Assembly (NCBI GenBank): GCA_030613245.1
Contig: JAUWMI010000001.1
Coordinates: 124,001-188,000 of the forward strand
DNA: 64,000 nucleotides
Direction of reading: 5' to 3'
Source: Candidatus Sumerlaeota bacterium
GTDB lineage: Bacteria; Sumerlaeota; Sumerlaeia; MWCT01; JAUWMI01
Positions 4,641-43,227 of the stretch are shown here, piece after piece. The stretch's first letter is position 1, and the number at the start of each line of letters is the position of its first letter. The position numbers and the translations under genes were made by a program. The notes under the pieces are model-generated. The model saw only the letters and a list, made by a program, of their open reading frames with translations, did not search any database and had not been told where the DNA came from.

Positions 4641-4721
4641 AAACGACAGCCAGCCGGGCAATTATCGGTCGTTTAACGGTCGTTAAAGGCGAAGAAAAAG
4701 CGAATGTTTTTCCGTCTCTTC

Positions 4722-5072
4722 CTAACTGGTAGGTTGCAAGATTTTTTTTGCCAAACTCCTGTTCATTTTTGCCAAACCTAATTGCAAGCTACAGTCTGTA
4801 AAATCGGTTTTCTGAGCTGGCAGCTCCTCACCCGCATCAGCATACGCACCCACAGGGTCGAGGTGCAGATAGCCACTGCTTTGCGTTGGCTCGCCAATCG
4901 GCCCAGCAATTCCAGGAATAACCCACTTAGAGTTGTCAATAGTCCCGGCATTGAATTCGTCAGAGAAGAGGAGTGTAGCCGGCAGGGCTGGCTGAAATGC
5001 ACTGCAGATGAGCACCAGGCATGCGGTTGCAAGAACGAAAAAAATTGCATTCGTGTGGTTCATGATTTTCAC
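4722..5072 (-). pseudogene. Truncated secreted LamG/GH16-like protein
   Basis: The frame begins with a signal peptide (HTNAIFFVLATACLVLICSAF, then LPA) followed by LLFSDEFNAGTIDNSKW, the usual opening of a concanavalin A-like (LamG, GH16 or DUF1080-type) domain. After about 70 residues of mature protein the sequence stops, whereas such domains need about 180. The last 14 residues come from a 21-bp period (TTTTTGCCAAAC at 4745 and again at 4766) and look unrelated to the fold. The truncated end faces the phage-like module, so the gene may have been cut by its insertion or by a deletion at its edge. It may still be expressed as a short exported peptide. Confidence 0.5.
4745..4777. repeat. Short direct repeat at the module boundary
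   Basis: TTTTTGCCAAAC occurs at 4745-4756 and 4766-4777, exactly 21 bp apart, in the 3' end of the truncated gene and next to the end of the tail module. It could be chance, a local duplication or a scar of an insertion. I see no copy elsewhere that would make it an attachment site. Confidence 0.3.
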
Positions 5073-5448
5073 CGCCTTTTATACAGGTTTTAATACTGGT
5101 ATTAGGCTTCATTTAGTAATCCTTAGCGAAAATGTCAAGCGGAAAAACGTCAAAGCAGACTGGAAAAGATCTCGAGAGTCCAGTCAGTCGCATCACATTT
5201 TTCTCGCTCACGGCAAAGGCAAGTTAGATGATGAACAGAGGGTCCAAGACTAAGGAGGGCATGCTTTATAAGTCTCTCATGATAGGCCTCTTTATCACTT
5301 ATAACCTCAGATTTTTGAATGTGAAATAAGGTTGACGCTCATCCAATAAGCGATATAATTTAAAAGAGAGAGACGGTAGTTTCTTACTCCTGCTGCCGTT
5401 GCTGATCCTGTGGTGCATGATGATAAGAGTACTCGTAGAGGCTGAAGC
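5073..5448. other. Intergenic region upstream of the kinase-like gene
   Basis: No convincing gene. It separates the divergent truncated secreted gene and the kinase-like gene and holds the promoter listed at 5332-5359. The roughly 90 bp between that promoter and the start codon show no clear riboswitch or attenuator. Confidence 0.5.
5332..5359 (+). promoter_or_regulatory. Sigma-70-type promoter of the kinase-like gene
   Basis: TTGACG (5332-5337), a 16-bp spacer and a perfect TATAAT (5354-5359). It points into the gene starting at 5449, leaving a leader of about 80 nt. Confidence 0.6.
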
Positions 5449-42290: not shown

Positions 42291-42893
42291 TCAGGAGCTG
42301 GACTTGAAGATATTCCTTGAGCTGGTAATCTCCGCACCAGCCTGACTCATCTCTTCGAGCGCCTGCTGGCTGCCCTCTGGTGTCAGACTCTTGATAGCAT
42401 CTTCAAGAACCTTAACCTCATACCCTCTTGTGCACGCGCCCAGCACCGCCACTTTGACTCAGTAATCTGTTGCAACTCCGTAGACCACCAGCTCGTGCCT
42501 CTTGAGCTGAGCAAGCAGCACTTCGGTATTCGGGTTAGAGAAGATGTCAAGCGACGATTTTTCGACGATCACCTGCTCCGCGGAGCCTGGCAGCGCAAAA
42601 CTACCTCGCTCCGGGATTACCACTGGAGCGGAGGTGAGCGTTTCTGGCACTTTCTGCTGTCCAGGGGTTCCCTTGACGCAGTGTGGGGGAAACTGCTGAA
42701 ATTCAGGATCATCTGCGGCGTGCGCGTCCATAGAAGAGATAATCGGGATGTGATGCGCCCGGGCAAATTGCGTAAGTTGTTTTAACAAGGGAAGGAGCTG
42801 CTCGGCACTCTCAACGTAAAGACGGCCGTGTGGCAGCATAAAGTCAATTTGCGTATCAATATCTATAAAAATCCACTTCCCTTCGTCTCCCAT
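42291..42893 (-). CDS. Nicotinamidase/isochorismatase-family hydrolase, candidate selenoprotein (in-frame UGA)
   Basis: ATG 42893 follows GGAGGT at 6 nt. The first 144 codons give a cysteine hydrolase: DIDTQIDFM with catalytic Asp, MDAHAADDPEF, HCVKGTPGQ with catalytic Lys, and LVVYGVATDY. Family members continue with CVKAAVLGA, the Cys being the nucleophile. Here that codon is TGA (42459-42461), and the same frame goes on for 55 codons with VKVAVLGACTRGYEVKVLEDA and ALEEMSQAGAEI, a complete family C-terminus, ending at TGA 42291. Read through, the protein has 200 residues, the normal length, with residue 145 decoded from UGA. Selenocysteine at the nucleophile position is the most economical reading; a recent nonsense mutation is the alternative. 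Substrate, nicotinamide or another amide, is not certain. Confidence 0.7.
42430..42452 (-). promoter_or_regulatory. Possible SECIS-like hairpin after the UGA codon
   Basis: Counting the U of UGA as +1, GUG (10-12) can pair with CAC (30-32) and GCG (13-15) with CGC (24-26), with an 8-nt loop GUGCUGGG at 16-23 and a 3-nt bulge. A G/U-containing apical loop at this distance suits bacterial SECIS elements, but six base pairs is weak and I could not compute a fold. Confidence 0.3.
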
Positions 42894-43227
42894 GTCAAGA
42901 CCTCCACACCAGAATACAAAAAGAGAGATTGGACATGCGGAAATTACGATGAATCTAGAAAGGGTGGGAAAAAAGGTCAAGCAATTTTGCAGATTATAGG
43001 AGATAGGCGCAAGGTGCGCCGTCTAAATACTGATATGGCGCAGCGCTCAGTGTGGCCAACAAAAGACTAGACAAACTTCTGTGTGTGTAATACTAGGGTT
43101 CTTCGATTTGATTTGATACAGGCCTCTTGGAGATTGGCGAGGCACAAACGGAAAGCGGAAGGTATCCATACCGTGTGCAGGTCTACTATGACCTCTAAGC
43201 GATGTGAAATAGCAAGTAGGGACGTCA
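42894..43227. other. Divergent intergenic region
   Basis: Between the start of the nicotinamidase-family gene and the UbiA-type gene. No gene, repeat or convincing promoter seen; a GTGTGTGTAATACTAG stretch near 43080 is a possible weak -10. Confidence 0.35.

Follow-up and report, generated by a model that had tools for sequence, protein, structure and literature searches.

Within the window (the whole stretch of 64,000 nucleotides that was analysed), the minus strand carries from 42893 to 42294 a single 200-codon frame, the sole interruption of which is a TGA at 42461..42459 (codon 145), and the terminal stop at 42293..42291 is a TGA too. The 55 codons that follow the internal TGA are homologous to the family and coding-like. 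The gene had been singled out in a first-pass annotation for a UGA lying exactly at the catalytic Cys, a continuation past it with no other defect and a read-through length of 200 residues, and all of these were borne out. The features of the locus are as follows.

42291 to 42893, minus strand: nicotinamidase-like (PF00857) gene, 200 codons through the internal TGA, plus the terminal TGA at 42291-42293
42459 to 42461, minus strand: internal TGA and predicted selenocysteine (Sec) codon (codon 145), aligned with the catalytic Cys
42430 to 42452, minus strand: candidate SECIS hairpin GUGgcgGUGC-UGG-GCGCgugCAC, spanning nt 7 to 29 downstream of the UGA
42901 to 42905, minus strand: ribosome-binding site GGAGG, 7 nt upstream of the ATG

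Protein family and reading frame beyond the TGA

The read-through protein matched Pfam PF00857 over residues 10-192 (E 4e-31; 108.7 bits against a cut-off of 27), and its closest solved relatives are nicotinamidases. A structure model, in which Cys stood in place of Sec, predicted a confident nicotinamidase fold (mean pLDDT 91.8), with the nicotinamidases 1ilw and 3o93 as the best structural matches. Alignment to the Pyrococcus horikoshii nicotinamidase 1ilw placed codon 145 in the column of the nucleophilic Cys and assigned D13 as the catalytic Asp and D56, H58 and H71 as the metal ligands (D-x-H...H); the DxH...H and HCxxGTxG motifs are found as in nicotinamidases. The catalytic Asp and Lys had both been described as intact, the latter within HCVKGTPGQ. 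D13 agrees with the first part of this description, but the HCVKGTPGQ motif supplies the metal-binding His71, and K112 (QVIVEK) is the probable catalytic Lys, as judged from strand correspondence in the model and from conservation: K112 lies at the end of the strand that matches the one with K94 in 1ilw, and within the close clade it is conserved in all but L021. The Cys nucleophile of PncA is not encoded in the window gene, which has UGA, a predicted Sec codon, at codon 145 instead. Against the NCBIfam nicotinamidase equivalog PRK11609 the window protein scored 77.1 bits (cut-off 174), and L050 and L055, two relatives linked to a nicotinate phosphoribosyltransferase gene (pncB), also remained under this cut-off.

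Codon preference amounted to 0.126 nats per codon after the TGA and 0.109 before it, both other frames being negative. In a leave-one-out test with 18 close-clade sequences, restricted to columns conserved at 90% or more, the window protein broke 0 of 28 other strongly conserved columns, and seven relatives broke one to three. Its branch length in the tree (1.05, against a median of 0.72) was unremarkable. Mean identity to close homologs was about 0.46 upstream and 0.32 downstream of the TGA; homologs compared with one another show a drop of 0.07 (s.d. 0.08), so that the 0.14 seen here is less than one s.d. away. The slightly lower C-terminal than N-terminal conservation was counted against the Sec reading, though it lies within the family spread. 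With the 28 columns intact and the coding signal maintained, the downstream part displays no decay, as the first reading of the locus had it.

To obtain a base rate of interrupted genes, 576 kb in stretches, equal to 13% of the genome, were inspected. In-gene stops with coding-like, homologous flanks on both sides were confined to the codon-145 TGA and the Sec codon of the SelD gene; the remaining listed cases resembled antisense frames or adjacent genes that share a frame, and no gene interrupted by TAA or TAG was found in this sample. Codon 145 is also only 1 of the 65 single-substitution nonsense targets in the gene. Taken together, the codon preference, the 1 in 65 and the occurrence of only two such stops in 576 kb indicate that the TGA at codon 145 is beyond chance.

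Selenocysteine machinery and the candidate SECIS

Sec machinery in the same genome, the main test that had been set for a Sec-dependent enzyme, is present: the draft genome (4.29 Mb, 97 contigs, 96% complete) encodes tRNA-Sec on contig C86 (68.3 bits, anticodon tca), SelB on C50 (377.8 bits), SelA on C97 (551.6 bits) and SelD on C7 (366.6 bits). The SelD gene (L083 9964; G000:C7, about 27964) has its own in-frame UGA (...EKASCAG-U-ASKLG) in a CAGU motif, the known Sec form of SelD, and this UGA is an in-genome positive control for Sec decoding. A strong hairpin follows the SelD UGA, yet it is outside the standard bSECIS limits, which suggests that the SelB of this genome may accept other shapes. 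Gene callers would split this SelD at its UGA. The four sel loci correlated with the window in tetranucleotide make-up at 0.78 to 0.91, compared with 0.34 to 0.53 for three loci of other genomes, so they are unlikely to be contaminants. A SelA match was found in 11 of 40 relatives, indicating that the Sec trait is patchy in the lineage. A code with reassigned UGA was rejected, as TGA is the stop of 114 of 301 long ORFs and also of the nicotinamidase-like gene. A Sec-type formate dehydrogenase was considered as a further in-genome selenoprotein and dropped, the only match being uninterrupted and under the cut-off.

Two stretches of the genome are atypical in composition. The stretch L100 (G000:C86:1-20000) shares its contig with tRNA-Sec, from which it is separated by more than 100 kb; it has 33% G+C, against about 50% elsewhere, and a deviant tetranucleotide make-up, and is possibly an island or a misbinned piece. 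Just upstream of the window, L084 (G000:C26:104001-124000) has a G+C of 56%, a deviant tetranucleotide make-up and short same-frame genes of phage-like appearance, and is possibly a prophage.

A SECIS downstream of the UGA had been anticipated, and a hairpin was found there, the support it lends being marginal. In the bacterial SECIS model, a loop of 3-9 nt with G in the first two positions tops an upper stem of 4-16 bp, at a spacing of 16-37 nt and a folding energy of -7.5 kcal/mol or lower (PMC13188914). The hairpin running from 42452 to 42430 (loop UGG, 4 bp, 16 nt, about -7.7) lies within every limit, each time at the edge. The same test was passed by 18.5% of random codons and by 8 of 17 Cys homologs, the folded stability was not above that of shuffles, and an Rfam scan returned no SECIS match after either the codon-145 UGA or the SelD UGA. 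The candidate hairpin, as folded, therefore appears to add little to the Sec reading. V148, A153, C154 and T155 depart from the close clade and sit in the hairpin arms; that they were shaped by a SECIS is suggestive and is not claimed, as Ala at 153 also occurs in members further removed, 1ilw among them, and homologs fold equally there.

Homologs, pncB linkage and competing explanations

Relatives at roughly 35-47% identity were found in Acidobacteriota, Calditrichota, one Methanoperedens-labelled record and several other groups, and nearly all homologs have Cys at the UGA column. The proposed alignment of homologs at this column thus gave the expected Cys and no other UGA member: about 390 different whole genomes yielded none, nor did the GTDB contig, plasmid and IMG/VR matches, and phylum searches around G073 and G095 added none. 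Matches with '1 TGA' in G180, G176, G070 and G062 were rejected as UGA members, all having Cys at the column. The IMG/VR matches have Cys there, with one Ser, and the plasmid matches are weak (about 32% identity or less). A few relatives have another residue at the catalytic column, namely Gly in L022 (G095:C304:15296-15862; codon GGC), L030 and L031, the last two representing different genera of a single family within the same class, and Ser in L027, the congener of which (L026) has Cys. From their sequences, these Gly and Ser relatives are possibly non-catalytic members.

In L050, L055 and L021 the gene directly follows pncB, that of L050 and L055 matching NF006696 with 540 and 526 bits. Several genomes of the same phylum have PF00857 matches and pncB on one contig, separated by anything from a few hundred bases to some two thousand, for example G004, G005, G018, G026, G033 and G039. 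This adjacency in relatives supports the view that the group functions as nicotinamidases. In L050 the pncB-pncA pair has downstream of it, at positions 4688-5422, a gene resembling that of NtrR (an ADP-ribose-responsive repressor; sub-cut-off, 75.7 of 400 bits), which suggests an NAD-salvage gene cluster. In the window genome, no TIGR01513 match to pncB and no other match to the window protein were found, and the lack of a detectable pncB leaves room for a dispensable gene.

The main rival to Sec decoding holds that the gene has become dispensable and that a natural nonsense mutation has recently turned its TGC or TGT codon into TGA; the product, cut to 144 residues, would be inactive. The missing pncB, the single UGA member, the weak SECIS and the loss of the nucleophile tolerated by the Gly and Ser relatives all speak for it; such a mutation would however have had to fall on one target in 65, in a Sec-decoding genome whose 576 kb sample holds no TAA- or TAG-interrupted genes, and to have left the conserved columns undecayed and the coding signal persisting past the stop, and we regard it as improbable. 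An error of assembly or sequencing, with TGC or TGT as the true codon of an ordinary Cys nicotinamidase, needs a single base in a draft of 97 contigs, but it too must have struck the catalytic codon in a genome with no other stray in-gene stop in the sample, and is thus very improbable. A further alternative touches the substrate only and overlaps with the preferred reading: a real Sec enzyme acting on another amide, or in a redox or selenium-related role. The genome without detectable pncB, the sub-cut-off NCBIfam score (77 of 174 bits) and a fold family that includes biuret, triuret, maleamate and carbamoylsarcosine amidases are in its favour, and so, as a lead only, is a 2016 survey in which orphan selD genes of several phyla had PF00857 genes nearby (PMC5029168). 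The nicotinamidase-like DxH...H and HCxxGTxG motifs, the relatives adjoining pncB and the nicotinamidases as best structural matches point the other way, and no conserved resolving Cys was found beside the Sec column in the homolog alignment; we consider this alternative unlikely, if worth keeping in mind.

The sel machinery, the UGA-containing SelD, the Cys homologs and the intact downstream part together support the Sec-dependent enzyme originally proposed. Judged from sequence, the window gene probably encodes a Sec-dependent nicotinamidase-like enzyme, a probable selenoprotein family new to the inventory and represented by one gene. The single UGA member, the weak SECIS hairpin and the lack of a detectable pncB count against this Sec reading. 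A hydrolytic function outside redox chemistry would be unusual for Sec and was also counted against this reading; most known cases are redox proteins.

Proposed mechanism and comparison with known selenoproteins

It is likely that the enzyme is a Sec-dependent nicotinamidase-type amidohydrolase, in which selenium would not take part in redox chemistry but act as the nucleophile that hydrolyses the amide. We infer Sec insertion, the identity of the SECIS, the substrate, the chemistry and any catalytic gain from selenium. To decode UGA145, SelB would deliver tRNA-Sec, the hairpin that directly follows the codon would be the SECIS, and SelA would make the Sec with selenophosphate from SelD. In nicotinamidases, an Asp activates the nucleophile, a Lys assists, and a metal positions the substrate ring and water. 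By analogy, D13 would be the base activating Sec145, assisted by K112, and D56, H58 and H71 would hold the corresponding metal. The Sec145 selenolate could then attack the carboxamide of nicotinamide, or of a similar amide, giving a selenoester in place of a thioester, from which acid and ammonia would be released.

If true, this would add a family to the bacterial selenoproteome with Sec as a hydrolytic nucleophile, and the benefit of Sec versus Cys would become testable in a small, well-studied enzyme type with a simple assay. The gene would be truncated in standard annotation, and further members might come to light if this column were searched for UGA.

In the first-pass annotation the family was not known as a described selenoprotein, which agrees with the literature: neither the 2026 inventory of 119 prokaryotic selenoprotein families (PMC13188914) nor deep-Sep (PMC12013277) contains an isochorismatase or nicotinamidase family, and a literature search pairing selenocysteine with nicotinamidase gave nothing relevant among the titles listed. 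In deep-Sep, three families without UGA-containing homologs in other organisms were accepted (PMC12013277); UGA homologs elsewhere are supporting evidence in prediction pipelines and are not strictly required.

Compared with PncA (PF00857; P. horikoshii 1ilw, S. pneumoniae 3o90-3o94), the window protein has the same fold, catalytic Asp and Lys, metal-ligand motifs and nucleophile position, but differs in the UGA at the nucleophile codon, in a structure-aligned identity of about 28% and in falling under the NCBIfam equivalog cut-off. Its Cys clade neighbours L050 (Acidobacteriota), L055 (Calditrichota), L021 and L077 share 43-47% full-length identity and the same conserved columns, whereas they have Cys at the column, and L050, L055 and L021 adjoin pncB, which the window gene does not. 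The same-genome SelD belongs to a well-known selenoprotein family and is an unrelated protein, yet it resembles the window gene in having an in-frame UGA at a catalytic Cys position and a hairpin downstream. Finally, the CTP synthase C-terminal region-related selenoprotein, a glutamine amidotransferase (PMC13188914, PMC12013277), is of an unrelated family and fold, but like the window protein it has a predicted Sec at a Cys position (GxUxG) and is kin to amide hydrolases, not to thioredoxins.
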